Source: Hydrogenophilales bacterium
Lineage (GTDB): Bacteria > Pseudomonadota > Gammaproteobacteria > Burkholderiales > Thiobacillaceae
Direction of reading: 5' to 3'
Assembly (NCBI GenBank): GCA_023258975.1
Contig: JAHFRD010000006.1
Coordinates: forward strand, 1-64,000
Length of the DNA: 64,000 nucleotides
Part shown: piece after piece, positions 46,549 to 61,163 of the stretch
How the letters are laid out: each line of letters begins with the position of its first letter
Numbering within the stretch: the stretch's first letter is position 1
Notes under the pieces: model-generated
Told to the model about the DNA's origin: nothing
What the model saw: only the letters and a program-made list of their open reading frames with translations
Database searches by the model: none
Made by a program: the position numbers and the translations under genes

Positions 46549-47736
46549 TTACTGATTGCGCGCGTTGTACAGCTCGGCGATATGCGCCACCAGCAGACGC
46601 GCCTGGGTACGCTTGTCGGCCTTCTCCAGCACATGGTGGCCGCCATCGTCGAGCAGGATCAAGCGCACGGCGTCGCTGCCCACCGCTTCCTTCACGTCAT
46701 TGGCGACGATCAGGGGCAGATGCTTGCGGCGGCGTTTCAGTTCCGCGTATTCCTCGATGTTTTCGCTCTCGGCGGCGAAGCCGACGCAGAACGGCGGCTT
46801 CGCGCGGCTGCTGATGCTGGCGAGGATGTCCGGGTTGGGAGCCAGTTCCAGGGTGAGGATGTGGGCGTCCTTCTTGATCTTCTGCTCACTCGGGTTGAGC
46901 ACGTAGTAATCGGCCACCGCCGCCACCGAGATGAAGATGTCGGCGGCATCGACCACCGCTTCCACCGCCGCCAGCATCTCCTGCGCGCTCACCACCGGCA
47001 GCAGGCGCGCCTCGCGCGGCGGCGCCAGGCAGACGCGGCCGGAAATCAGGGTGACCTCGGCGCCGGCCTCGATGGCGGCGCGCGCCACGGCGTAGCCCAT
47101 CTTGCCGGAACTGGGGTTGGTGATGCCGCGCACCGCGTCGATGGCCTCAAACGTGGGGCCGGCGGTGACCACCACTTTCAGCCCCTTCAACCGTTTCGCC
47201 TGGAAGCGCGCCTCCAGTGCTTCGAGCAAGGATTCCGGTTCCAGCATGCGGCCGAAACCGACCTCGCCGCAGGCCTGTTCGCCGCTATCCGGCCCCAGCA
47301 CCGTAACGCCGTCGGTGGTGAGTTGGGCGACGTTGCGTTGCGTGGCCGGCGCTTCCCACATCTGCCGGTTCATCGCCGGCGCCACCAGCAGGGGGCAGTC
47401 GCGCGCCAGGCAAAGCGTGGAGAGCAGATCATCGGCGCGCCCCTGCGCCAGCCTGGCCAGGAAATCGGCGGAAGCCGGCGCCACCAGGATGGCGTCGGCG
47501 CCCCGGGTCAGGTCGATATGCGCCATGCCGTTGTCGACGCGCTCGTCCCAGAGGTCGCTGAACACCGGGTGGCCGGTGATGGCCTGAAAGGTGGCGGCGC
47601 CGACGAAATGCCGCGCCGCCGCGCTCATCACCACCTGGACGTCGAGCCCGCCCTTCACCAGCAACCGCGCCAGTTCCGCCGCCTTGTACGCCGCGATGCC
47701 GCCGGTGATGCCCAATACGATGCGTTTGAGTTTCAT
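46549..47736 (-). CDS. coaBC: Phosphopantothenoylcysteine decarboxylase/synthetase
   Basis: A 395-residue bifunctional enzyme for coenzyme A synthesis. The N-terminal CoaC flavin domain (residues 1-190) has GITGGIAAYKAAELARLL, PAMNRQMWEAPATQRN and the active cysteine in GEQACGEVGFGRM. The C-terminal CoaB domain has VVVTAGPTFEAIDAVRGI and SSGKMGYAVA. The dut gene downstream is its usual neighbour. It overlaps the Uma2 gene by 4 bp. Confidence 0.96.
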   Translation of the reverse strand: MKLKRIVLGITGGIAAYKAAELARLLVKGGLDVQVVMSAAARHFVGAATFQAITGHPVFSDLWDERVDNGMAHIDLTRGADAILVAPASADFLARLAQGRADDLLSTLCLARDCPLLVAPAMNRQMWEAPATQRNVAQLTTDGVTVLGPDSGEQACGEVGFGRMLEPESLLEALEARFQAKRLKGLKVVVTAGPTFEAIDAVRGITNPSSGKMGYAVARAAIEAGAEVTLISGRVCLAPPREARLLPVVSAQEMLAAVEAVVDAADIFISVAAVADYYVLNPSEQKIKKDAHILTLELAPNPDILASISSRAKPPFCVGFAAESENIEEYAELKRRRKHLPLIVANDVKEAVGSDAVRLILLDDGGHHVLEKADKRTQARLLVAHIAELYNARNQ

Positions 47737-48305
47737 GCCGCTTCCTGTTCCACGTCTTCAAAAACCACATCGAGCGGCGCCATGAAATCCAGGCTGTTCA
47801 GGATCAGACCCTGATCGCTTTCGCTCGCCATCAACAGCCAGTCGCCCGATTCCTGGCGGCGGAATACTTCCACGCGGCGGCTGTCGGGGTCGATCAGGGC
47901 ATATTCCTCAAGGCTGCCCAGTTGCCGATAGGCGGCGAACTTGCCACCCCGGTCATAGGCGGCGGTGCTTTCCGAAAGCACCTCGATGATGACCTTGGGA
48001 TGCCTCATCGCCAGATCTGCCTTGAGGTCATCCGGATGGCAGGTGACCAGCACGTCGGGATAGAACACCGCGTCGGCGGTTTGTACCGCCAGCTTCATGT
48101 CCGCCATGAAAGCGCGGCAGGGTCCGCCGCGCAGGTGCGCCTTGAGGCTGGCGTAGCAATTCCCGGCCACGGCAACATGCACCCGGCGAGCGCCGGTCAT
48201 GGCGAACACCTCGCCGGCCACGAACTCATGCTTGTCCGGCTGCTGGTTTTCCCAGGCGATGAATTCCTCGGTGGTCATGACGACCTGATGTTGCGGCAAG
48301 CCCAT
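47733..48305 (-). CDS. Uma2 (DUF820) family protein
   Basis: A 190-residue protein of the Uma2 PD-(D/E)XK-fold family. Visible motifs are TTEEFIAWENQQPDKHEFVA, DAVFYPDVLVTC with the putative catalytic aspartate, and PKVIIEVLSESTAAYDRGGK with the E-x-K-like arrangement. The family is abundant in cyanobacteria and some sulfur bacteria; its biological role is unclear. Start MGLPQHQVVMTTEEF at 48305; the frame extends upstream only into non-conserved sequence. It looks co-transcribed with coaBC. Confidence 0.85.
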   Translation of the reverse strand: MGLPQHQVVMTTEEFIAWENQQPDKHEFVAGEVFAMTGARRVHVAVAGNCYASLKAHLRGGPCRAFMADMKLAVQTADAVFYPDVLVTCHPDDLKADLAMRHPKVIIEVLSESTAAYDRGGKFAAYRQLGSLEEYALIDPDSRRVEVFRRQESGDWLLMASESDQGLILNSLDFMAPLDVVFEDVEQEAA

Positions 48306-48489
48306 GATGCACCCCCTCGAATCGGCTTCAACGGAGCGGATTGTAGGGCAGGCATCCGCGACGCGGCTTGTTCCCGCCTCGGCATCGGGATACCCACAAA
48401 AACCCGATGGGCTGCGGGGGTTTTCGATTGACGTCTCCCCGCGCCTTCGGCATCTTCGAACCACTCTCAACAGACCCGAGTCTTCCAGC

Positions 48490-49542
48490 ATGGACATCCA
48501 CAGCCAGCCCATCGAAAACCGGATCGACTGGGTATTCGAGATCGCCACGCGGCACGCGGAAACCTTCAGCAGCCCGGAAGCCTGGCTCGCCCGCCAGCGT
48601 TACCTGGCGGAGCACCCCACCGCCGTGCTCGTGCTCAAGTGCATGGACGGGCGTATCAACATCCCCATCGCCACCAAGACCCCCAAGGGCATCATCCAGC
48701 CCTTCCGCAACCTGGGCGGCATGTTCAACCTGGGCTGGCCGCATCTCGGTGAAGTGTTTGCCCATAACATCCAGCAGGTCGTGCGCGCCGGACGGCGGAG
48801 TCTGGTTCTGATCACCTATCACTACTCCAAGGGCGACCCGAAACGCGGCTGTGCCGGCTTCAACTACGACACCGAGGCCGCGCGCGCCCACACTCAGGAA
48901 ATCCGGTCACAGGTGGAATACACCTTCGGCCTCGGCCATGACACCGTCTACCCGCTGGTGTGCGGCTTTGAAACCGACGAGGAAGCCCTCGTCCTGCATG
49001 GCGCCGGGGGCGGCATCCTCAATCTGGCGGAACTCGAATCGGCCGCCCTGCCGCACCTCGGGCAGCGGCTGGCCAGCCTGTATCCGGACATGCCGGCCCA
49101 GGTGCGCGCCGATCTGCTCCCCTTGTTGCTGGGCAACATCGAGCACATCGCGGATCTGCGCCAGACCTCGCGCGAGCTCAATATCGAACACCGGGAATGG
49201 ATCATCTGCGTGGGTCGCGGCTTCGATTTCCTGCACATGCCCAATCTGGCCCTGATCATCGGCCCTTACAGCCCGGATTTGGGCGACCCCATACGCAAGG
49301 CCGCCGGCATCATCGAATCCAACATGCGCGCCGGACGCATCCCGGATGACGGCTTCCTTCTGCTCGCCTCCTCGCCCTACGAGGAAATCGGCGTGGACCG
49401 GGCGCGCGCGCAACTCAAGGCGCATTTCCTGTCGAAGTTCGCCGCCGAGGAAATCCAGCGTGAGCGCCCCGAGTTGGCGAAGAAGATGCACGTGCGCACC
49501 GCCCTGCTCGATTGGAACTCCAGGCGGCTGGAGGTGCTGTAA
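48490..49542 (+). CDS. Divergent beta-carbonic-anhydrase-like protein (CsoSCA/DabA-like zinc site)
   Basis: A 350-residue soluble protein with no signal peptide. C51-M-D53-G-R55 matches the first zinc-site motif of beta carbonic anhydrases (CxDxR). RNLGG at residues 73-77 resembles the conserved RNAGN loop. H111 and C121 (YHYSKGDPKRGCAGF) would complete the zinc site. H and C are ten residues apart, not three as in ordinary beta enzymes; wide spacing is known in CsoSCA (11) and DabA (15). A C-terminal domain (about 170-350) is unrecognised. It faces the dab genes convergently. Carbonic anhydrase activity is inferred. Weak -35/-10 at 48428-48456. Confidence 0.7.
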   Translation: MDIHSQPIENRIDWVFEIATRHAETFSSPEAWLARQRYLAEHPTAVLVLKCMDGRINIPIATKTPKGIIQPFRNLGGMFNLGWPHLGEVFAHNIQQVVRAGRRSLVLITYHYSKGDPKRGCAGFNYDTEAARAHTQEIRSQVEYTFGLGHDTVYPLVCGFETDEEALVLHGAGGGILNLAELESAALPHLGQRLASLYPDMPAQVRADLLPLLLGNIEHIADLRQTSRELNIEHREWIICVGRGFDFLHMPNLALIIGPYSPDLGDPIRKAAGIIESNMRAGRIPDDGFLLLASSPYEEIGVDRARAQLKAHFLSKFAAEEIQRERPELAKKMHVRTALLDWNSRRLEVL

Positions 49543-49654: not shown

Positions 49655-51151
49655 TCAATGATGCAGGCGCCCCACCCATGCTTCCGCCGCCGGCCGGATG
49701 ACTTCCAGAAGCGGGGCGGGGTACAGCCCGAAAATCAGGATCAGCGCGGCGAAGGACAGCACCAGGGCGAGTTCGCGCGGGCGCAGGTCGAGCGCGCTGG
49801 CGACGCCCTGATTCGTCACCGGGCCCAGGAAGGCGCGGCGGTAGAGGTTGATGAAGTAGCCGGCGCCCACCACCATGCCGAACAGGGCGGCGAGACCGGC
49901 GCCGGTGTGGGTCTTGATGGCGGAAACCAGAATCAGCAGTTCCGCCGGGAAACCGCTGGTGCCCGGCACACCCATGCCGGCCAGACCGAAGAACAGGAAG
50001 AAACTGGCCAGCAGAGGCATGGTTTTCGCGGCGCCGCCGAGGGAGAGCAGGTCGGTGGAGCCGAGGCGGTGCTGCACGAAGCCGGTGATCAGGAACAGGC
50101 CGCCGGCCACCAGAGTGAAGTTGAGCAGTTGCAACACCGCGCCCTGCGCCCCTTGCAGGTTGAAGGAGGCGATACCGAGCAGCACCAGGCCGACGTGGGA
50201 AAGGCTGGCATAGGCCAGCATGGCGCGCAGATTGGTCTGCGCCAGGGCCGCCACCGCGCCGTAGAGCAGACCGAAGACACCGAGTCCGGCGAGCAGCCAG
50301 TGCAGGTGTAGCGCGGCGTCCGGTGCCAGCGGCACGGCGAAGCGGAGCAGGCCGTAGGCGCCCAGCTTGAGGCCGGTGAGCAGTGCCACCACCGCCACCG
50401 GGCCTTCCATCGACAGCAGCGGCAGCCAGGTATGCAACGGAAAGACGGGGATCTTCACCGCGAAACCAAGGAACAGCAGCAGGAAGACGATCCATTCCAG
50501 TCGGTCGGACAAGGGTGTGGCGAGCAGCGTCGCCAGATCGAAGGACAGCCCGCCGGGCAGGCCGGCGCCGCCCAGCGCGGCGTGATTGAAGGCCAGCACC
50601 AGGAAGCCGAACAGCAGCGGCACGCCGCCAGCGAACATGATGAGGGTGTACTTGGTGGCGGCGTAGCCGCGATGCGGCCCCACGCCCCAGAGACTGACCA
50701 GGAAGTAGAACGGCACCAGGGAGAGTTCCCAGAACAGGAAGAACAGCATGGTGTCCACCGCGCAGAATACGCCCAGCGTCGCCCCGGCCTGCAACAGCAG
50801 CAGGCTGTGATACAGGCGCGGCAGCTTATTTTTGTCCTGCTGCGCGCTGTTCCAGGAGGCCAGGTTCACGCCCAGGAAGAGCAGCGCGGTGGCGGGCAGG
50901 AACAGGACGGAAATGCCGTCCACCCCGACCGCGTAGTCGATGTTCAGGCTGGGAATCCAGGCGGCGCGCTCGACCATCTGAAAGCCGGACTGGCTCGGAT
51001 CGAAAGCGACCAGCAGGAGCAGGGCGAGCGCCAGGCCGACACCGTTGACCGCCAGGGCGACGCCGCGCGCGGTGTCGGCGCGCGGCGCCAGCCACACCAG
51101 CAGGGCGCCCACCGGGTAGGCCAGGAGCAGGAGGGAGAGCGAATCAAACAT
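49655..51151 (-). CDS. NuoM-like antiporter-type membrane subunit, third copy
   Basis: A 498-residue, about 14-helix protein of the NuoM/MrpD family. The key glutamate motif (FFLFWELSLVPFYFLVSLWG) and the broken-helix lysine region (LTGLKLGAYGLLRF) are kept, with FPLHTWLPLLSMEGPVAVVA between. Last gene of the dab transcript, overlapping the preceding gene by 8 bp. Probably part of a proton- or sodium-conducting module coupled to DabA, not of complex I, since no other nuo genes are present. Confidence 0.85.
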   Translation of the reverse strand: MFDSLSLLLLAYPVGALLVWLAPRADTARGVALAVNGVGLALALLLLVAFDPSQSGFQMVERAAWIPSLNIDYAVGVDGISVLFLPATALLFLGVNLASWNSAQQDKNKLPRLYHSLLLLQAGATLGVFCAVDTMLFFLFWELSLVPFYFLVSLWGVGPHRGYAATKYTLIMFAGGVPLLFGFLVLAFNHAALGGAGLPGGLSFDLATLLATPLSDRLEWIVFLLLFLGFAVKIPVFPLHTWLPLLSMEGPVAVVALLTGLKLGAYGLLRFAVPLAPDAALHLHWLLAGLGVFGLLYGAVAALAQTNLRAMLAYASLSHVGLVLLGIASFNLQGAQGAVLQLLNFTLVAGGLFLITGFVQHRLGSTDLLSLGGAAKTMPLLASFFLFFGLAGMGVPGTSGFPAELLILVSAIKTHTGAGLAALFGMVVGAGYFINLYRRAFLGPVTNQGVASALDLRPRELALVLSFAALILIFGLYPAPLLEVIRPAAEAWVGRLHH

Positions 51152-52649
51152 GGCCGAACCTCGCCGCCAGCGCCTTCATGGGGGTTTCCACCAGATCCAG
51201 CCAGGGCACCATGTGGAAGCCGGCAGTGAGGATCACCACCACCAGGAGGACGGCGATGAACCATTCCATGCCGCTCGCGCGTTCCACCGCGCCGCCGCGA
51301 CCGGCCGGCGTCGGCGCCAGGAAGGCGCGCTGGAAGGCCCAGAGCAGGAAGCCGGCCGCCACCACGTTGCCCAGCGCCGCGCCCACCGTGGGGAGGGCGC
51401 CGAAGCGGTGGATGGCGGCCTCCAGTACCAGATGGGCGGCATCGAAGCCGGGCGTGCCGGGCATGCCGACGATGGCCAGGCCGGCGACGAAGTAGGTTAG
51501 ACCGATCATGGGGATGCGATCGAACAGGCCGCCCAGCTTTTCCAGGCGGGTGGTGCGGGTGCGCCGATAAACGAGGCCGGTCATCAGCATCATGGCGGTG
51601 GCGGCGAGGCCGAAATTCACCGTCAGCAACAAGGCTCCCTGCAACGCGACATGATCGAGGGCGAACAGGCCGACCAGCACCAGCGAGGTATGGCTGACCA
51701 CGGCGAAGGCCATGAGGCTGCGCAGATTGGTCTGCTGGAAGGCGAGCAGCGCGGCGTAGAACACCCCGGCGGCGGCGAAGCCGACCACGTAGGGCGCCCA
51801 CGCCTCCACCGCCGCCGGCAGCAGCGGCAGCACGAAACGCACCAGGCCGTAGATGCCGACCTTCACGCCCAGCAGCAGGGCCGGGGCGATGGCGACATTG
51901 CCATGCCGCGCCACCGTCGGCAGCCAGCCATGCAGCGGGAAGATCGGAGTGCGCACACCGAGGCCGTAGAACAGCAGGAAGAAACACACCGCGCCGAGTT
52001 CGAGCGGCACCGCCTGGCCGGCCAGGTCGAACAGGTCGAAGGTCCAGGCGCCCCCGGTCAGGTCATGGTGGGTCCAGCCGAGGATGAGCACGCCGGCCAG
52101 CAACATGGCGAGGCCGACTCCCTGGAACTGGTAGAAGCGGGACACCGCCGTTTCCCTTTCCGGCGAAACCGACCAGCGCCCGATGAGATGCCCTACCAAC
52201 GCCAGTTCCACGCCGGAGGCGAGCACGAACCAGAGCAGGTTGAACGTGGTGAGCGAGGACATCATCACGCCCTCCACCGCCAGCACCACGGCGATCAGGC
52301 GCGACTCTTCGCCGAGGCCGCGCACCATGCCGTAGAGCGTGACCAGGAAGACGATCAACGCGCCGAGCAGGACGAACAGCACGGTCACGCCGTCGGCGCC
52401 GGCGTGGTAGGCCAGCGGCCCGAGCAGATCGAGGCGCTCGGCGAACTGGAATGCCGCCTCGTGTTCATCGAACTGGCGATACAAGAGGATGGCCAACAGC
52501 AGTTCGATGCCGGCGATGCTCCGCCCCAGCAGGGTGGCCGCGCCGGTTTCACCCAGCCGCAGCAACAGCGCGGCGCCCGCCAGCGGCAGGAATTGCAGCG
52601 TCGCCAGCAGGGGCCAGTTCGCGTGTTGGTTCCAGAAAAGTTCAGTCAT
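51144..52649 (-). CDS. NuoM/NuoN-like membrane subunit, divergent copy
   Basis: A 501-residue antiporter-like protein. The lysine helix is present (LLLGVKVGIYGLVRF) with FPLHGWLPTVARHGNVAIAP before it. The usual WE motif of helix 5 is replaced by WFVLASGVELALVGH, so the glutamate is displaced. This may be a structural or regulatory subunit with an altered ion path. Start at 52649 (MTELFWNQHANWPLL), overlapping the DabB-like stop (TGATG). Confidence 0.82.
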   Translation of the reverse strand: MTELFWNQHANWPLLATLQFLPLAGAALLLRLGETGAATLLGRSIAGIELLLAILLYRQFDEHEAAFQFAERLDLLGPLAYHAGADGVTVLFVLLGALIVFLVTLYGMVRGLGEESRLIAVVLAVEGVMMSSLTTFNLLWFVLASGVELALVGHLIGRWSVSPERETAVSRFYQFQGVGLAMLLAGVLILGWTHHDLTGGAWTFDLFDLAGQAVPLELGAVCFFLLFYGLGVRTPIFPLHGWLPTVARHGNVAIAPALLLGVKVGIYGLVRFVLPLLPAAVEAWAPYVVGFAAAGVFYAALLAFQQTNLRSLMAFAVVSHTSLVLVGLFALDHVALQGALLLTVNFGLAATAMMLMTGLVYRRTRTTRLEKLGGLFDRIPMIGLTYFVAGLAIVGMPGTPGFDAAHLVLEAAIHRFGALPTVGAALGNVVAAGFLLWAFQRAFLAPTPAGRGGAVERASGMEWFIAVLLVVVILTAGFHMVPWLDLVETPMKALAARFGHV

Positions 52650-54181
52650 CACAGAATCACGACCAGGGTCGCCATCACCAACAGCAGCAGATAGCGCGGC
52701 TGCTCCAGCAGGGTTTCCACCCATTTCAGCCAGTCGCCCAGGCGCCGCATGCCGTCACCCAGGCGGCCGCCACCGCCTTGCAGAACCAGATGTTGCTCGA
52801 AGCGGTCGCAGCGCTGCGCCACCCACAACAGCAGACCGCCGGCGAGGCCGCGCCCCTTCACCACTTCGGCGTTGTTGTCCCGCTCGTCGAGCAACGCGGC
52901 GGCGCGTTGCGCTTCCGGCATGCCGACCAGGCGGCTGACCACGTTGTCGTCGATGGCGCGCATGTCGCGCGCCATCGCCAGAGTCGGGCGGGTGAGCAGG
53001 CGGTCGGCCAGGGACTCCAGCCAGAAGCGTTGCAGGGCGGCGGTATACAGGCGTGGACAACGGCGTAACCACGCGGGCGCCGGCGGCGTGGGCGCGCGCA
53101 ACAGGTGCATGTAGGAGGGGGCGGCGAGGAACTGCCAGGCGCGCCAGGTGGCGTGCAGGGCCATGTGCCAGGCGGCGAGATCGAACAGGCCGAGACCGCA
53201 TTCCAGGAACATCAGGCCGACCTGGGTGAGGGTAGCGAACAGCAGAGCGGATTTCACGTCGCTCTGCGCGTAGCCGACGATCCAGGCGTACAGCGCCGTG
53301 AGCAGGCCGATGAGGGCGATGAGCGCCATCACCCCGGGGGTGTGAACCAGGATGGGTTGCAGACGGATCACCAGGTAGACGCCCGCATGCACCATCACCG
53401 CGCCGTAGAAAATCGCGGAGGAGGGGGTCGGGCCTTCCAGCGCGCGCGCGATCCAGGGCGAGAACGGCACCTGCGCCGATTTCGCCAGGGCGGCGGTGAC
53501 GAAGCCGAGCGCCATCAGGCCGACGTAGAGCGTGGGCAGGTTCCGGGCGCCGGTGGCCATCTCCTTCCAGTCCAGGCTACCCAGCCAGAGCGCGGCCAGG
53601 GCGATGCCCAGCAGGAAGCCGGCGTCGCCGACGCGGTTGGTGATGAAGGCGCGCTGTGCGTTGGTGGTCGCGGTGCCGCGCTCGAAAGCGTAGCCGATCA
53701 ACATCCACGAACTCACCCCGGCCAGTTCCCAGCCGACGAACGCCAGCGCCGCGTTGCCGGCCAGCACGATCAGCGCCATGCCGGCGGTGAACAGGTTCAT
53801 GCCGATGAAAAAACGGTGGAAACCCGCCTCGCGGTGCATGTAGTTGACCGAGAACTTGAGCGTCACCAGGGCGATGAAGGCGACCAGGGTGGCGAAGCCC
53901 AGCGCGAGTCCATCCAGGGTGAACGACAGTGGCAGCTTGAGCGCGCCGCTGGTGAACCAGTCGGCCAGCCATACCTGTCCCGGCGGGCCGGCTCGCGCGG
54001 CGAGGACGTCCAGCCCGAGCAGGGTCAGCAGGCCGAAGCCACTGGCCAGGAGGGTGATGCGCGCGGTGAGCCTTTCCCCCGCCTCGCCGCGCGCCGGCCC
54101 GGCCAGGTGCAGCAGGGTAATGAGCAGCGCCGCCAGCAGCGGCAGCGCGGGGATCAGGGCAATCAGGGCAAAGGGGGTCAT
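52649..54181 (-). CDS. dabB: DabB: NuoL-like membrane subunit of the inorganic-carbon pump
   Basis: A 510-residue NuoL/MrpA-type protein, the direct neighbour of dabA. FVGWELAGVSSWMLIGYAFE carries the helix-5 glutamate. KSAQVPFSPWIARALEGPTP and SSAIFYGAVMVHAGVYLVIR are the NuoL half-channel. DabB is the membrane partner that, in studied systems, energises DabA with a cation gradient. It lacks the long NuoL lateral helix, as expected. The ATG at 54181 overlaps the dabA stop by 4 bp. Confidence 0.9.
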   Translation of the reverse strand: MTPFALIALIPALPLLAALLITLLHLAGPARGEAGERLTARITLLASGFGLLTLLGLDVLAARAGPPGQVWLADWFTSGALKLPLSFTLDGLALGFATLVAFIALVTLKFSVNYMHREAGFHRFFIGMNLFTAGMALIVLAGNAALAFVGWELAGVSSWMLIGYAFERGTATTNAQRAFITNRVGDAGFLLGIALAALWLGSLDWKEMATGARNLPTLYVGLMALGFVTAALAKSAQVPFSPWIARALEGPTPSSAIFYGAVMVHAGVYLVIRLQPILVHTPGVMALIALIGLLTALYAWIVGYAQSDVKSALLFATLTQVGLMFLECGLGLFDLAAWHMALHATWRAWQFLAAPSYMHLLRAPTPPAPAWLRRCPRLYTAALQRFWLESLADRLLTRPTLAMARDMRAIDDNVVSRLVGMPEAQRAAALLDERDNNAEVVKGRGLAGGLLLWVAQRCDRFEQHLVLQGGGGRLGDGMRRLGDWLKWVETLLEQPRYLLLLVMATLVVIL

Positions 54182-57100
54182 GCGGCCGCTCCCGTAGCGC
54201 CGGCGTCCTCGCCGGCAACGCCCGCCGATAGGCGGGCTTCCAGCCCGCTTGCCGGCGAGGACGTTGGCGCCACACCGGTTTCGATCAGCGCCGGCGGCAG
54301 CGCGTCGCGCTGGCCACGGTACCAATCCGCCGAGCGTCGCACGCTGGGCAGCGCCGGGCCTTGCGGCAGCCATTCGACCCAGCCGGCGCCGACCACGAAG
54401 CGGTGGATCGCGGCCGTATCCGGGTCGATGGCGACGAGTTGGATCCAGGCGTTGTCGATGAGGCTCTGGATGGCGGGCTGGCGCTGGTAGATCGCGGTGA
54501 GCACGTCGAGCGTGTGTTCCACCACCACCAGGATGCGCATCGCCTCGTGTACCTCGATCATCTGCCGGGGCAGGCCGGTGCGCAGGTCGGAGGCTGCGCC
54601 TTCCATCACGCCGAGCAGGCCGGCGACGTTGTGCATGACCTTGGTGCCGCAGCCGTAACGTTCGTTGTTGGCGCTGGAGAAGTAGTACTCCAGGCTGATG
54701 CCGGCGCCCACCGCGCCGTTGATGATGAGATGCCGCTCCAGCACGGCGCCGTCCGGATCCTGGCTGGGGTCGTAGGAAACCAGGAAGGTGCGGCGGTCGA
54801 AGAACGCCCCGCGCGACAGCGAGCGGCGGCCGAAAAAGGCGCTGGCGTTGGTGGCGTGGCCGAGTTCCGGGCGCGCCTGCGAATAGTCGTTGGCGCGGCC
54901 GGTGACATGGTTCCAGGCGGCCTCCGGGCCGATGTCGAGCGGCGCCGACATGAAGCGGCGGCAGCGTTCCTGGGCATGCAGGCGGCAGGCGGCCTCGCAA
55001 TCCCGCCGCAGTTTCGCCAGGGCCGGGCGCAGGGCTTCGGGCAGCAGCGCCTCGTCATACCAGGTGATGATGTCGTCGCAGGTGTCGTGTTCCGAGCCGA
55101 TGAACCAGGTGGCATCGGGAATGGTGATGCCGCGCTCGCGCAGCAGCGCGCGCACCTCGGGGCGGTTGGCCATCGCCGCCACCAGGCGCGCGTTGGGCCC
55201 GGAGTTGCGGCCGGCGCAGGCGCCGCAACTGTAGGCGGAACCATGCGGGTTGTTCAGGCTGTGCGAGCCGTGCCCGACGATCGCCACCAGGGGCGAAAAA
55301 CCGTAGGTGAGGCCGGTGTTGTACAGCAAGGCCTGCACCCGGTCGGTCTGTTCCACATCGGTGAAGCCCGGGTTGCGCGCCTCCGGGGAGGCGGTGGGGC
55401 TGTCGTTGGGCACGGTGAAGGCGATCCGGGTCGCCACCGGCCGGTCGAAGCGCGCGCGCAGGTTTTGCGTGAAGCGGCCCAGGGCGCCCGGCGCGAACGC
55501 CTTGCCGGCGAGCACGCCCAGGGTCAACGGCGCGGCGGCGATACTCATCAGGGTGGGCGTGACCAGGCCGAGACGGGTGCCCTGGTGCAGGCGCGCCTTC
55601 CAGCGCAGGCGCTGGCCTTGCCGCTGCGCGTGCCGGGCATGGAGCGCCGCGTCCACGGCCCGCTCGCGCACCTCATGCGCCGGCAGCACCACGCTCGGCA
55701 CCACCGGGCAGAGCGCCACCGCATGGTCGTCATCGAGGCTGCGCCAGGCGTGCGGCACGTTGAAGTGGGCGGCCGCGCCCAGGGTTTCCACCTCCGGCGC
55801 GAGTTCCTCCAGGTGGCGGCGCAGGCCTTCCTCGCGGTCGTCGATGCAGAACACCAGTTGCGCGGCGGGCGGCGTGGCGCGGGTCTTCCAGGGGCCGCGC
55901 CCGGCGTTGGCGGCGAGCGCGGCGAGAATCTGCTGGCGAAAGTGGCGTTCGTAGGCTTGCAGGAAGACCCAGCCCATGCGTTGCGGCGTGAGGTCGTCCA
56001 GGCAGGCCAGCAGCGCCTGGACGCCGTCGCCGTCGCACCGTGTGAGGGCGTGGGCAGGGATGCCGAGGTGCTGGCAGAGAAGGAAGAGGGGCCAGCGGTT
56101 CGGGTTGAGGCGGCGCGCATCGCACGCGTCCACTTTCTCCGTGAGCAGGCGCGCGATCGGCAGCCAGTCGGCCTCGTCCTCTTCGCCTGCGCGGTTGACC
56201 GCTTCGCGCACCATGCGATGGCCCTGGCCTTGCAGCCATTCCGGCGGCGTGCCCATCTCATGGCTGTCGCGTAGCGACGCTTGATGCTCCCCTCTCCCGC
56301 GAGCGGGAGAGGGATTGGGGGTGAGGGGCGGGCCATACAACGCCAGGCGTACCAGCAGTTCCGCCGGATGGTGGTGCAGATAGCCGCGCAGGCCATGCAC
56401 GCTTGCCTCGGTCTTGAAGTGGATGCTGGCGAGGCGCTGCGCGTGGATGCGTTCCAGCACCAGGCGCACGGCGAGGTAGTCCAGCATGGCGACGGGTGTG
56501 CTCGGTTGCGTTGCCTCGTCTTCGTAGCCGGGATGCAGATCGCGCCACAGGAACATGCCGGACCAGCCCGGCAACTCCAGGGCGAGCGCCTCCAGATACT
56601 CGGCGCGGCCATCGTCGGGCAGTCCCAGCACCTGCAATTCCTGGACGATGCAGGCTTCGGCATCGTCCGGCAGACGTTCCAGGATCGGGTCGCAACCGGG
56701 TAGTTCGCTGAATTCGAAATGTGGATCGCGGCGCGCGCTTTCCAGCCAGGCGGCATAGAAGCCGCGCGCCCGCGCCGGGTTGTGCCAGGCGGCCATGCCC
56801 AGATCCAGATGCGCGGCGAAATGCCGGATCAGATAGGGGCGCTGCTCGTCCAGGATGTCGCGCCCGGTCAGGCGCAGCAGCAGGCCGCGCAGGCTGAGGC
56901 CGTGCGTGAATTGCCCCATCAGGTCGGCAAGTTTCTGTTCGGCTTCGTGCTTGATCCGATGCAGGTTCCAGAGCTGGGCGGCCTCGCCGGCCAGGGGCTC
57001 CTCCGCCACTTCCGCCGGAGCGGCCTCGCGCGCGGCCAACGCGTCGCCGCAGGCTTGCCACAACGCCGTCAGCGCCACCGCCTCGTCGCCCCCCCCGTCC

Positions 57101-57546
57101 AGCAGGCGCCGCCGCGACGCATCCGGCACTTCGTCCTGGAAACGGGTGAGCGCGCCCAGTTCGTCGATGCGCCAGTCCAGGGCGGTATCGGGCAAGGGCT
57201 GGAGGTCGAAGCAAAGCGCGGCCAGCAGCGCGTCGCGGCGCCTGAGGCCGCCAGGCAAGGCCGCGTCGGCGCGCAGTTCCGGGGTCTCGTCGAGCGCGGC
57301 GTCGAGGTCGGAGAGATCAATGCGGCCTTGCCGGAAATAGGCGCGGAAGGCTTCCGGCGGCTGATAGCCGTGATTGCCGGTGGCCGCTTCCGCCGCCGCC
57401 AGGGCTGCGCGGAAATGCCGATCCGCGAAGCCGTGCAGGGTGTTGTGGTGCACGAAGTCCTTGATCGGCGCCTGCGCTGGCAGGAGGTGTTCCAGGTGGC
57501 GCAGCAGATCGCGCAGCCAGGCGTTCCGGGGCGTCGGGGTCGTCAT
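54178..57546 (-). CDS. dabA: DabA: inorganic-carbon transporter subunit (DUF2309)
   Basis: A 1122-residue peripheral protein of the DAB carbon uptake complex, thought to hydrate CO2 vectorially. The zinc site is complete: C567-I-D569-D-R (VFCIDDREEG), H759 (IVGHGSHS) and C774 (SAYSCGACAGR); the H-to-C spacing of 15 equals that of characterised DabA2. N-terminal hallmark: IKDFVHHNTLHGFADRHF. Odd points: residues 406-421 (LTPNPSPARGRGEHQ) are encoded by a palindromic repeat, and residues about 1091-1122 by a REP-like element. Both are probably late in-frame insertions. It overlaps neighbours on both sides by 4 bp. Confidence 0.95.
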   Translation of the reverse strand: MTTPTPRNAWLRDLLRHLEHLLPAQAPIKDFVHHNTLHGFADRHFRAALAAAEAATGNHGYQPPEAFRAYFRQGRIDLSDLDAALDETPELRADAALPGGLRRRDALLAALCFDLQPLPDTALDWRIDELGALTRFQDEVPDASRRRLLDGGGDEAVALTALWQACGDALAAREAAPAEVAEEPLAGEAAQLWNLHRIKHEAEQKLADLMGQFTHGLSLRGLLLRLTGRDILDEQRPYLIRHFAAHLDLGMAAWHNPARARGFYAAWLESARRDPHFEFSELPGCDPILERLPDDAEACIVQELQVLGLPDDGRAEYLEALALELPGWSGMFLWRDLHPGYEDEATQPSTPVAMLDYLAVRLVLERIHAQRLASIHFKTEASVHGLRGYLHHHPAELLVRLALYGPPLTPNPSPARGRGEHQASLRDSHEMGTPPEWLQGQGHRMVREAVNRAGEEDEADWLPIARLLTEKVDACDARRLNPNRWPLFLLCQHLGIPAHALTRCDGDGVQALLACLDDLTPQRMGWVFLQAYERHFRQQILAALAANAGRGPWKTRATPPAAQLVFCIDDREEGLRRHLEELAPEVETLGAAAHFNVPHAWRSLDDDHAVALCPVVPSVVLPAHEVRERAVDAALHARHAQRQGQRLRWKARLHQGTRLGLVTPTLMSIAAAPLTLGVLAGKAFAPGALGRFTQNLRARFDRPVATRIAFTVPNDSPTASPEARNPGFTDVEQTDRVQALLYNTGLTYGFSPLVAIVGHGSHSLNNPHGSAYSCGACAGRNSGPNARLVAAMANRPEVRALLRERGITIPDATWFIGSEHDTCDDIITWYDEALLPEALRPALAKLRRDCEAACRLHAQERCRRFMSAPLDIGPEAAWNHVTGRANDYSQARPELGHATNASAFFGRRSLSRGAFFDRRTFLVSYDPSQDPDGAVLERHLIINGAVGAGISLEYYFSSANNERYGCGTKVMHNVAGLLGVMEGAASDLRTGLPRQMIEVHEAMRILVVVEHTLDVLTAIYQRQPAIQSLIDNAWIQLVAIDPDTAAIHRFVVGAGWVEWLPQGPALPSVRRSADWYRGQRDALPPALIETGVAPTSSPASGLEARLSAGVAGEDAGATGAAA
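54193..54275. repeat. REP-like inverted pair inside the dabA 3' end
   Basis: CGTAGCGCCGGCGTCCTCGC and CGAGGACGTTGGCGCCACA arms enclose a nested GCCCGCC...GGCGGGC hairpin. It encodes the last DabA residues (SSPASGLEARLSAGVAGED). Confidence 0.75.
56287..56331. repeat. Palindromic CTCTCCCGCGAGCGGGAGAG repeat inside dabA
   Basis: Stem CCTCTCCCG/CGGGAGAGG flanked by CCCCAATCC-like sequence. This is a common dispersed genomic repeat that often reads LTPNPSPxRGRG. Here it is in frame in dabA (residues 406-421). Confidence 0.7.
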
Positions 57547-58997
57547 ATCGCGAACAAGCGCGCGTAGCGGCCGACCGAGGCGGCGATCAGATGCAGCATC
57601 GGCGCGGGGTAGAAACCGATGCTCAGGCTGCCGGCGGTGAGCACGGCGGCGGCGGTGAATTCGCCCCGGGTGAGGTCGGGCAGATGCCGCATGCGCGCGG
57701 AGACCGGGCCGGTGAACAGGCGCCCCACCGTGCGGATGGCGTAGGCGGCGGTGATGACCACGGTGAGCGAGAGCAGCGCCATCCAGGCACCCCAGCGTTC
57801 AAAACCACCCACCAGAACGTGCAATTCGGCGACGAAGCCGGCGGTGCCGGGCAGGCCGACGGCGGCGAGGAAGGCCAGCACGGTGAAGAAGGCGAAGCGC
57901 GGCATGACCTTGACCAGGGAAGCGTAGTCGGCCAGTTCGCGGGTGTGGGTGCGCTCGTACAGGAGGCCAATGAGCAGGAACAGCGCGCCCGCCACCAGGC
58001 CGTGCGCCACCATCTGCATCACGGCGCCGTTGAGGCCGGCCGGGTTGAGGGCGGCCAGTCCAAGCAACACCACGCCCATGTGCGAGACCGAGGAATAGGC
58101 CACCATCGCCTTCAGATCAGACTGCTTCCATGCCAGCACACCGCCGTAGACCAGGCTGACCAGGGCCAGCGTCATGAGCACACCCTGCAACGCCTCGGCG
58201 GCGGCGGGCAGCATCCAGACCGCGCGGATCAGCCCGTAGGAACCCATCTTGAGCAGGATGCCGGAGAGCAGGATGGACACCGGGCTGGGCGCCTCGACGT
58301 GGGCCAGGGGCAGCCAGCCATGCAGCGGGAAGATCGGCATCTTGACGCCGAAACCGATCAGGAGGCCGAGGAACAGACCGATCTGGGTGGCTTCCGGCAA
58401 CAACCGCGCGCCTTCCCGGATCACGCCCATGTCGAAGGAATGCCCGGGCGCCACGTCGTACAGGATGAGCAGGGCGATCAACATGAACACCGAGCCGCCC
58501 ATTGTGTAGAGCACGAAGTTGAGCGCGGCGTGGCTGCGGTTCTTGCCGCCGTAGCGGTCGATCAGGAAGAACAGCGGCAGCAGGGTGAGTTCCCAGAACA
58601 CGTAGAACAGCGACCAGTCGCGCGCCGTGAATACCCCCAGCATGGCCGCTTCCAGCAACAGCAGCAGGATGTAGTAGCCCTTGGGCTTGTCCTTGATGCC
58701 GGCGGAGGCGAGCGCGGCGATGAACGCCAGCAGCGTCGCCAGCCAGACCAGCGGCAGCGAGATGCCATCGACGCCGAGGGTGAAGGCGCTGCCCAGGCGC
58801 GGGTTCCAGACATGGCTTTCGACCAGTTGCGCGGTGGCGACCGCAGGGTCGAAGGCGGAGGCCAGCCACAGGCTCCAGCCCAGCGTCACCGCCGCCGCCG
58901 CGATGGCGGCGCGGCGGATGAGCGTGCCCGAACGCGCGGGCAGAAACACGATCAGCAGCGCGCCGAGCAGCGGCAGCAGAAGCAGGGTTCTCAGCAC
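57543..58997 (-). CDS. NuoM-like antiporter-type membrane subunit, first copy
   Basis: A 484-residue NuoM/MrpD-type protein starting at GTG. It has FYVFWELTLLPLFFLIDRYG with the helix-5 glutamate and GILLKMGSYGLIRA with the lysine, plus FPLHGWLPLAHVEAPSPVSI. Of the three NuoM-like proteins here it is closest to bona fide NuoM. It overlaps dabA by 4 bp and follows the SulP gene by 18 bp. Confidence 0.88.
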   Translation of the reverse strand: MLRTLLLLPLLGALLIVFLPARSGTLIRRAAIAAAAVTLGWSLWLASAFDPAVATAQLVESHVWNPRLGSAFTLGVDGISLPLVWLATLLAFIAALASAGIKDKPKGYYILLLLLEAAMLGVFTARDWSLFYVFWELTLLPLFFLIDRYGGKNRSHAALNFVLYTMGGSVFMLIALLILYDVAPGHSFDMGVIREGARLLPEATQIGLFLGLLIGFGVKMPIFPLHGWLPLAHVEAPSPVSILLSGILLKMGSYGLIRAVWMLPAAAEALQGVLMTLALVSLVYGGVLAWKQSDLKAMVAYSSVSHMGVVLLGLAALNPAGLNGAVMQMVAHGLVAGALFLLIGLLYERTHTRELADYASLVKVMPRFAFFTVLAFLAAVGLPGTAGFVAELHVLVGGFERWGAWMALLSLTVVITAAYAIRTVGRLFTGPVSARMRHLPDLTRGEFTAAAVLTAGSLSIGFYPAPMLHLIAASVGRYARLFAI

Positions 58998-59015
58998 GGC
59001 GCGCGCTGCCAGCGA

Positions 59016-61163
59016 TCAGGCCGCAGCCGGCGCCGGCTTCACCACACAGAACAGATCATCCTGGGCCACATCGGCCAGACGCTCGTAGATCGCGGTCAGC
59101 GCCTGATCCTCGGTGGCGAAGATGTTGTGCTGGCCGATCAGTTCGAACAGGCCGGTGGAGCGCATCACGTCGAGAATCTGTTTCTTGAGGCCGGAGAACA
59201 CGATTTCCACGTTGCCCTCGCGCAGCCGGCTGACCAGGTGGTGCACCACTTCCTCGCCGGAGGCGTCCATCTGGTTCACCGCGTCGCCGACGATGAGCAC
59301 GTACTTGGCGTTGGGGTTGTCCGCCACGGCTTCCAGCACCGCGTCCTCGAAGAAGGCGATGTTGGCGAAGTAGAGGGAACCGTCGAAACGCATGGCCACC
59401 ACATGCTCGCTGGTGGGCAGGTTCGGGTGCACCTTGATGTCGCGCAAGGTGCCGTCCGGGTAGCGGCCGAGGATGGCCACGCGGGGGCGCATGGTGCGGT
59501 ACAGGTAGAGCAGGATCGCCAGGCCGGCGCCCACCAGGATGCCGTTGTCCAGATGCGGCGCGTAGATCAGGGTGGCGACGAAGGTGATGCCGGCGGCGAT
59601 GCCGTCATGGCGGCTGGCGTGCCATGCGTGCTTGATCGCCTCGAAGTTCACCAGGCCGATCACCGCCATGATGATGATGCCCGCCAACACCGCCTGGGGC
59701 AGGTGATAGAGCAGCGGCGTCAGGAACAACAAAGTGAGCAGCACGAAGCCGGCGGTGATGACGGAGGCCAGCCCGCTTACCGCCCCCGCGTTGAAGTTCA
59801 CCGCAGAACGTGAGAAGGAGCCTGACGCCGGAAAGGCCTGGGTGAAGCTGCCGGCGATATTGGACAGGCCCTGGCCGATCAATTCCTGGTTGGGATCCAC
59901 CTTCTGCTTGGCCTTGGCCGCCAGGGCCTTGGCGATGGAGATGGCCTCCATGAAGCCCACCAGGGAGATGACGATGGCGGCGGAAAGCAGGGAACCGATG
60001 GCGTCCAGGTTCAGGCTGGGCATGGACACGGAAGGCAGGCCCTTCGGAATGGAGCCCACCACCTCGCCGCCACCCACCAGCTTGAGCTCGCCGCCCTTCA
60101 CCTTCTTGATGCGCCAGCGCACCCCATCGGTCGGGGTGCCCTCGGGCACATTACCCTCAAGAAACAGCTGGCCACCGCCCTGGCCGCCGCTCTGACCATC
60201 AGGCACGCGCTGGAAGGCCATCTTGCGCAGGGCGCGCATGCGCTTGGAGTTCTCTTTTTCCCGATCCTCAAGCTTCAGGCGCAGCACGTCCAACTCGTAG
60301 CGCAGGCTCAAGGCCGCCTGGCTATGCTCGCCATGCGTTTTTTCCTGTGCCAGCAAATGGTTTTGCACGGCCGCGATTTCGGTGTTGATCTCGGTGATCT
60401 TGCGTTCGGCTTCCACCGATTCGTTGAGCAATGTCCGCACATCGGGGTTGACCACTTGATCGAAAACGGCGGTGCCGTTGCGTTCGAACGTGATGGCCCA
60501 GGAGAGGGTGGTCGTCAGCACCACGGCGATCAGCACACCCGGCCATTTGGGTTTGTATTTCCGGATGGCCCACATCAGGGTGATGGCCATCACGCCCATG
60601 CCCAGCGTCGGCAGGTGGGTATCGCCGATCTGCTGGAACACCCCCCAGATGTCCTTCATGAAGCTTTCCGAACGTCCCATGGGCACGCCGAACAGCTTGG
60701 ACACCTGGGACAGGCCGATGATGATGGCTGCGGCGTTGGTGAAGCCCACGATCACCGGGTGGGACAGGAAGTTGACGATCACGCCCAGCTTCAACACGCC
60801 CAGGGAAAGCTGAAAGACGCCGACCATCAAGGTCAGCAAAATCGCCAGGGCGATGAACTGGTCCGACCCGGGTGGCGCCAACACGGCCAGGGAAGACGCG
60901 GTCAGCAGGGAGACCACCGCGACCGGGCCGGTGCCGAGAAAATTGGATGAACCGAACAGGGCCGCCACCGCCACCGGCAGAAAGGCCGCGTAGAGGCCGT
61001 AATAGGCCGGCATGCCCGCCAACTGGGCATAGGCCATGGACTGGGGAATCAGCACCAGGGCCACCGTGATCCCGGCGATGAAATCCGCCTTGAAGAGATC
61101 GCCCTTGAGGGGAAACCAGCGCAGGAAGGGGAGGTAGCGGGCAAGAGAATTCATGGGCGGCAT
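59016..61163 (-). CDS. SulP-family anion transporter with inserted coiled coil
   Basis: A 715-residue SLC26/SulP transporter, a candidate bicarbonate or sulfate carrier. The N-terminal signature is present (ADFIAGITVALVLIPQSMAY), as is the SulP core at about 395-560 (FPASGSFSRSAVNFNAGAVS). The C-terminal STAS domain is at about 590-700 (ILIVGDAVNQMDASGEEVVH-type segment). Unusually, residues about 231-365 form an extra soluble insertion between transmembrane blocks: a charged coiled coil (246-312) then a glycine-rich linker. First gene of the probable dab operon. ATG at 61163 or 61154. Confidence 0.88.
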   Translation of the reverse strand: MPPMNSLARYLPFLRWFPLKGDLFKADFIAGITVALVLIPQSMAYAQLAGMPAYYGLYAAFLPVAVAALFGSSNFLGTGPVAVVSLLTASSLAVLAPPGSDQFIALAILLTLMVGVFQLSLGVLKLGVIVNFLSHPVIVGFTNAAAIIIGLSQVSKLFGVPMGRSESFMKDIWGVFQQIGDTHLPTLGMGVMAITLMWAIRKYKPKWPGVLIAVVLTTTLSWAITFERNGTAVFDQVVNPDVRTLLNESVEAERKITEINTEIAAVQNHLLAQEKTHGEHSQAALSLRYELDVLRLKLEDREKENSKRMRALRKMAFQRVPDGQSGGQGGGQLFLEGNVPEGTPTDGVRWRIKKVKGGELKLVGGGEVVGSIPKGLPSVSMPSLNLDAIGSLLSAAIVISLVGFMEAISIAKALAAKAKQKVDPNQELIGQGLSNIAGSFTQAFPASGSFSRSAVNFNAGAVSGLASVITAGFVLLTLLFLTPLLYHLPQAVLAGIIIMAVIGLVNFEAIKHAWHASRHDGIAAGITFVATLIYAPHLDNGILVGAGLAILLYLYRTMRPRVAILGRYPDGTLRDIKVHPNLPTSEHVVAMRFDGSLYFANIAFFEDAVLEAVADNPNAKYVLIVGDAVNQMDASGEEVVHHLVSRLREGNVEIVFSGLKKQILDVMRSTGLFELIGQHNIFATEDQALTAIYERLADVAQDDLFCVVKPAPAAA

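Follow-up and report, generated by a model that had tools for sequence, protein, structure and literature searches.

The window analysed here, the first 64,000 nucleotides of contig JAHFRD010000006.1 from a Hydrogenophilales bacterium, carries a gene for a carbonic-anhydrase-like protein beside an operon for the inorganic-carbon pump DAB, which raises the question of what family the protein belongs to and whether it could serve the pump. In the carbon-concentration model, a carbonic anhydrase combined with a pump but no shell is self-defeating because the free enzyme lets CO2 leak, and the presence of a free carbonic anhydrase together with a bicarbonate pump has been described as a possible conundrum (PMC10880623). 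The host bacterium appears, from its gene content, to be without carboxysomes. A profile search for BMC shell genes that was positive in 2 of 14 control genomes gave no matches in its genome, which has two Rubisco large-subunit genes as well as one PF00484 beta carbonic anhydrase and one alpha carbonic anhydrase.

Translation of the open reading frame agrees with the residues named in the original prediction: C51, D53, R55, an RNLGG loop (R73-G77) and, instead of an HxxC pair, H111-x9-C121. An earlier in-frame start is possible at 48304, while the MDIH start that we use is where the alignment of most homologues begins. Just upstream, on the opposite strand, the called frame of a Uma2-family gene (putative restriction endonuclease, 47733-48548) slightly overlaps the start of csoSCA2. 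Aligned with six CsoSCA proteins from other genomes, C51, D53, R55, H111, C121, H234 and E236 fall on all seven residues of the published CsoSCA active-site list (C173, D175, R177, H242, C253, H397 and E399; PMC9164163). In a profile alignment to PDB chain 2fgy_A, the aligned His, Cys, His and Glu are likewise H242, C253, H397 and E399 after subtracting a chain offset of 28. The first five of these residues are invariant in 14 of 14 aligned homologues and all seven in every one of the 47 sequences aligned, the window protein among them, and the motif is therefore not a chance match. An AlphaFold2 model of the protein was predicted with high confidence (pLDDT 93.4, pTM 0.89), with two helices (8-26 and 29-41) preceding the first strand. 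The original prediction had expected C51, H111 and C121 to be conserved and to converge in a predicted structure; they are conserved, the predicted fold is that of CsoSCA, and the convergence, judged from alignment and fold, is consistent with the CsoSCA zinc site. The invariance of every catalytic residue also argues against a relative that has lost catalysis or acts only in regulation, such as a bicarbonate or RuBP sensor. We consider that explanation highly improbable, although Cyanobium CsoSCA is allosterically activated by RuBP near the defunct active site of its C-terminal domain (PMC11086599) and the main texts of the CsoSCA2 literature found appear to report no activity of the protein.

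Table 1. Features of the csoSCA2-like gene and the neighboring DAB operon (window coordinates)
Feature	Position	Strand	Basis
csoSCA2-like gene, compact non-carboxysomal CsoSCA homologue, 350 aa	48490..49542	+	ORF translation, Pfam, alignments, model
C51-x-D53-x-R55, putative first zinc ligand and Asp-Arg dyad (CsoSCA C173/D175/R177)	48640..48654	+	Alignment; CsoSCA numbering from PMC9164163
H111 ... C121, putative remaining zinc ligands (CsoSCA H242 and C253)	48820..48852	+	Alignment; numbering from PMC9164163
H234-x-E236 in the C-terminal domain (CsoSCA active-site H397/E399)	49189..49197	+	Alignment; numbering from PMC9164163
NuoM/Mrp-like membrane subunit, last operon gene	49655..51151	-	PF00361
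NuoM/Mrp-like membrane subunit	51144..52724	-	PF00361
DabB (NuoL-like, Proton_antipo_N + M)	52649..54181	-	Pfam
DabA, long form, 1122 aa, C567-x-D569 and H759-x14-C774	54178..57546	-	PF10070 E=1.2e-227
NuoM/Mrp-like membrane subunit	57543..58997	-	PF00361
SulP-family transporter with STAS domain, likely first operon gene	59016..61163	-	PF00916/PF01740

The window protein is a member of a described but uncharacterised family, named CsoSCA2 in 2022 (PMC9164163) and non-cso CsoSCA in 2024 (PMC11086599). Its sole Pfam match is CsoSCA_cat (PF20686; 26.7 bits against a gathering cut-off of 21.5), and its score of 41 bits with TIGR02701, the equivalog model for carboxysomal CsoSCA, lies below the curated cut-off of 241.05. 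A PDB search with a profile of 14 homologues returned CsoSCA alone at E-values up to 0.01; the single-sequence search was uninformative, with an RNA helicase chain (E 0.0021) just above CsoSCA (0.004). When the model was searched against the PDB by fold, the top five matches were five CsoSCA chains from three entries (E 1.4e-15 to 4.9e-15), above every ordinary beta carbonic anhydrase (1ddz, E 2.5e-6). A new enzyme class is thus ruled out by the Pfam match, the CsoSCA alignment and the fold search together with the two family papers.

As published, CsoSCA2 proteins are compact, are encoded outside carboxysome loci and have an N-terminus of about 40 residues, one active and one defunct domain and all catalytic residues. 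The window protein is compact in the same way, with a two-helix short N-terminus, no hook insertion and shorter loops in both alignment and model. It is 70% identical to the protein of locus L082 from Ca. Accumulibacter phosphatis and 69% identical to that of locus L073 from Sulfuricella, both carriers named in PMC9164163, which also names Sulfuritortus. With carboxysomal CsoSCA (2FGY, 8THM, 9G4T) it shares the fold, the zinc ligands, the Asp-Arg dyad, the C-terminal His/Glu and a wide spacing of the ligands (H-x10-C in CsoSCA), but the structural alignments show only 18-19% identity, the N-terminal hook and Rubisco-binding region is missing by alignment, and the two families form separate clades in a quick tree (SH-aLRT 100; 101 versus 5 rows). 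Canonical beta carbonic anhydrases have the CxDxR motif and a related fold, but the window protein has no PF00484 match, an H-x9-C rather than H-x2-C pair and a single active site over two domains. DabA, also a protein of inorganic-carbon function, has a zinc-enzyme motif with widely spaced ligands but is much larger, and the window protein has no match to PF10070.

These comparisons modify the original prediction in several respects. The protein does resemble a carbonic anhydrase, though not a canonical beta one. By alignment and fold search, the supposedly widened spacing is real but is the normal CsoSCA spacing (H242-x10-C253) less one residue, and of the two enzymes said to share it, CsoSCA is a true relative while DabA is alike only in the wide spacing itself. 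The C-terminal half, previously thought unrecognised, is by the same evidence the C-terminal domain of CsoSCA, carrying H234 and E236. The enzyme family itself is described, and the 2022 paper calls it yet to be studied. The DAB linkage that the original prediction pointed to recurs, and the main texts of the two family papers appear to make no mention of it.

The DAB operon next to the gene is real, as the original prediction claimed. Six genes run from 61163 down to 49655 in the order SulP, NuoM-like, DabA, DabB, NuoM-like and NuoM-like, with overlaps of 4 to 76 bases, except that SulP ends 18 bases before the next gene. The csoSCA2 gene is tail-to-tail with the operon; since the two are on opposite strands with their stop ends 112 bases apart, it lies beside the operon, not in it. 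A pattern scan found no terminator between them. With SulP, three extra NuoM-like subunits and a DabA of 1122 residues, the operon at 49655-61163 is an extended form unlike the two-subunit DAB2 of the published description.

To see how often such an arrangement recurs, we compiled 20 CsoSCA2-positive genomes, 15 from 250 genomes of the order and five more from 369 of the class. TIGR02701 is weak on CsoSCA2 (21-30 bits for five of six class-draw genes, window included, with G569 missed), and a dedicated profile (A1) was therefore used in the class draw; eight weak A1 matches (E 4e-15 to 6e-11), all in CsoSCA genes above the cut-off, were left out of the CsoSCA2 count. Flanks of up to about 10 kb on either side were searched in the window and 18 other genomes for DAB, Hyf-like, SulP, beta carbonic anhydrase and Rubisco genes. 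The remaining genome, G596, was placed from genome searches, with DabA about 5 kb from csoSCA2 on the same contig as locus L076.

A DAB or a Hyf-like operon lies within 10 kb of csoSCA2 in 10 of the 20 genomes and neither does in the other 10. The DAB operon accounts for three (G000, G214 and G596) and the Hyf-like operon for seven, adjoining the gene in G014, G243, G145, G129 and G331 and lying about 3.4 kb away in G150 and 7 kb in G248. Three of these seven Hyf-like operons (G014, G243 and G145) were seen to include SulP; the flanking sequence of G129, G150 and G248 stops short of, or inside, the region expected to contain it, and in G331 there was no match within 1.8 kb beyond HyfB. As in the window, csoSCA2 is convergent with the operon in most linked relatives and is thus not co-transcribed with it there, while it follows directly, on the same strand, after the last DAB gene in G214 and after HyfI in G331. 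Set against a chance rate of 2%, which is our rough assumption, linkage in 10 of 20 genomes gives p ~1.6e-12 and in 8 of 14 genera p ~7e-11, both too small because of relatedness. A survey of named loci (80 of 360 found) gave a DAB operon in the flank of 16, starting less than 1 kb away in 14 and at about 6 kb in two (in L071 the flank covers two NuoM-like genes only), and at least two adjoining Hyf-like genes in five, with a HyfB fragment in a sixth.

Other neighbors were seen in individual loci. On the side of csoSCA2 away from the Hyf-like operon, G014 and G243 have a gene for the Rubisco large subunit (a 92% identical piece) at a distance of about 4.2 kb, and two Thiobacillus MAG contigs have Rubisco large-subunit matches about 4 kb upstream of the gene (L090:4500-6056, L093:2910-5180) with a Hyf-like operon downstream. 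Rubisco genes near csoSCA2 were published for two Sulfuricella species (PMC9164163); the flanks of our Sulfuricella locus L073 gave no Rubisco match, unlike those of G014 and G243. In G043 (L149, L164), a stretch of about 50 kb includes csoSCA2 and two Rubisco genes, together with a set of carboxysome shell genes and true csoSCA a few kb from csoSCA2 and a DAB-SulP operon about 18 to 25 kb from it. A canonical beta carbonic anhydrase gene (PF00484; L028:9218-9856) lies directly upstream of csoSCA2 and divergent from it, and at L158:7871-8915 (G145) a real break or an assembly error divides csoSCA2 between two reading frames. No match to csoSCA2 was found in 72,556 plasmid records.

The Hyf-like operon comprises, by Pfam family, NuoB, 49/30-kDa complex I, antiporter-type and NuoH subunits and one member without a Pfam match, followed by SulP; the Hyf names of its members are ours, given from the Pfam matches and the usual gene order. 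Copies of this Hyf/Ehr-like operon with SulP that converge on csoSCA2 and are apparently NiFe-free occur at L028:11069-20473, L150:341-9768, L153:345-9766 and L158:8973-18643. NiFe enzymes carry cysteines at a stretch where all three copies of the HyfG-like protein compared there have SGDST, and none of the five copies checked has a CxxC motif, so the protein is probably not a hydrogenase. The operon therefore appears to encode a hydrogenase-like proton-pump complex that is apparently free of NiFe, and with SulP it plausibly takes part in inorganic-carbon uptake. A similar motif, SGD[TS], is known with NLSYSGHDL from group 4-like large subunits of Acidithiobacillus (PMC6002666), the only directly relevant paper in our searches on Ehr/SulP, Hyf/SulP, hydrogenase-4 and Thiodiazotropha. 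The neighborhoods of non-cso CsoSCA genes reported as often having NAD or [Fe-Ni] hydrogenases or permeases (PMC11086599) probably include this operon.

CupA/B are thought to convert CO2 and bicarbonate on cyanobacterial NDH-1, and CsoSCA2 could similarly dock on DAB or the Hyf-like complex for gated or vectorial conversion there. Such docking would suit two linked membrane modules that have different soluble parts but common NuoL/M-type antiporter subunits, with SulP examples in both, as well as the loci of G214 (DAB) and G331 (Hyf-like), where csoSCA2 closes the row of operon genes in the same orientation, and the lack of a hook domain. We nevertheless regard it as unlikely, given that the genes are mostly convergent and not co-transcribed, that half of the sample is unlinked, and that DAB comes with a catalytic subunit, whose motif is intact.

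In the CsoSCA2 tree, DAB-linked rows occur in several places, and forcing 18 linked rows of 101 together was rejected (AU p=0.0013), in a test chosen after inspecting quick trees with poorly resolved backbones. The test left out L016 (which is G214 and itself DAB-linked), L115, L114, L015 and L017 and added G596 to the linked set; the linkage labels on the tree predate the flank surveys, with the rows later recognised as Hyf-linked (G014, G243, G145, G129, G150, G248, G331 and L079) as well as G214 and G596 labelled 'none'. The DAB-linked rows are not one clade, and linkage thus arose or was lost repeatedly, both of which fit. In the DabA tree the window group and a Thiodiazotropha group are sisters (SH-aLRT 96), with L058 apart, which means that a single cassette, inherited or transferred, may account for part of the pattern. 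A 45-row clade with Accumulibacter and other Rhodocyclales has one DAB-linked row (L058) and two Hyf-linked rows (G150, G248), and no match to either operon in its other searched flanks. MAG contigs labelled Myxococcales, Sumerlaeota, Nitrospira and Desulfobulbaceae (L055, L078, L088 and L026/L037/L097) carry csoSCA2 genes 67-72% identical, by lateral transfer or misbinning.

The relatives in Accumulibacter, Dechloromonas and Propionivibrio, whose searched flanks gave no DAB or Hyf-like match, would fit a general housekeeping carbonic anhydrase of the cytoplasm that supplies bicarbonate to anaplerotic carboxylases, with the pump linkage reflecting only a shared regulon or island. Heterotrophs are among the published carriers (PMC9164163), and the recurrent neighbors looked up for the named loci seem unrelated (eight cluster representatives: rRNA methylase, Wzc-type kinase, malate dehydrogenase, PAPS reductase, CobD, aminotransferase, nitroreductase and NAD synthase). 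However, the host genome already has another beta carbonic anhydrase, linkage in half of the sampled genomes is far above the assumed chance rate, and Rubisco (PF00016) is present in all 15 CsoSCA2-positive genomes among the 250 of the order sample, compared with 99 of the other 235 (p=4.5e-6, which overstates independence because the sampled genomes are related). We therefore consider a purely housekeeping role rather unlikely. The co-occurrence of homologues with dabA that the original prediction anticipated is weak by genome (6 of 15 versus 46 of 235, Fisher p=0.09) and was dropped as the main argument, physical linkage being the stronger signal. DabA is present in 22 of 49 CsoSCA2-positive genomes queried; in four of these (L027, L040, L046 and L050) it shares a contig with csoSCA2 at a distance of 11 to 18 kb, and the others, G596 apart, were counted by genome irrespective of position.

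The reading that we favor, and judge moderately probable, is that csoSCA2 encodes a soluble cytoplasmic carbonic anhydrase belonging to a module that takes up inorganic carbon without carboxysomes. The predicted enzyme would consist of two fused beta-carbonic-anhydrase-like domains with one zinc site formed by C51, H111 and C121, gated by D53 and R55, to which the second domain would contribute H234 and E236. SulP, DAB and the extra proton-antiporter subunits would raise cytoplasmic bicarbonate, a task that in relatives may fall to the apparently NiFe-free Hyf-like complex, often with SulP, in place of DAB. Working with the pump in the cytoplasm, CsoSCA2 would catalyse the equilibration of this bicarbonate with CO2, and we infer a net flux toward non-carboxysomal Rubisco, with leaked CO2 recaptured by the pump. 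Several points weigh against this module. No linkage is seen within 10 kb in 10 of the 20 sampled genomes, nor is the genome-level association with DabA significant (p=0.09). Pump neighbors are lacking in many loci of Accumulibacter and related bacteria, the linked genes are mostly convergent and hence not co-transcribed, the host has both a beta and an alpha carbonic anhydrase, and an unconfined cytoplasmic enzyme next to a bicarbonate pump threatens to let CO2 leak out.

The family as such is known from the literature, and the new finding is that its genes recur beside two kinds of carbon-pump operon. We found no paper reporting DAB linkage of CsoSCA2 in its main text; the single mention of DAB in PMC9164163 is in the title of a cited reference, and the convergent six-gene SulP-NuoM-DabA-DabB-NuoM-NuoM arrangement appears to be absent from the main texts of the CsoSCA2 papers. 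CsoSCA2 is widespread, and its published description draws, in those texts, on sequences and models alone and assigns it no role. Its recurring linkage leads to the hypothesis of a carbonic anhydrase that serves inorganic-carbon pumps in bacteria mostly without a shell gene (no shell match in 18 of the 20 carriers; matches in G043 and G355). A more far-reaching and rather doubtful extension is that CsoSCA2 is an exchangeable partner of carboxysome-free carbon-concentrating systems, one that goes with DAB-SulP in some hosts and in others with a Hyf-like proton-pumping complex that is apparently NiFe-free and in examples has SulP. It may dock on either of them, and bicarbonate would be dehydrated beside the pump or Rubisco without a shell; carboxysomal CsoSCA could then descend from an older pump-linked enzyme. 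If the module is real, it would help to explain the CO2 supply of non-carboxysomal Rubisco in many autotrophs, and it could bear on the origin of the carboxysomal carbonic anhydrase.
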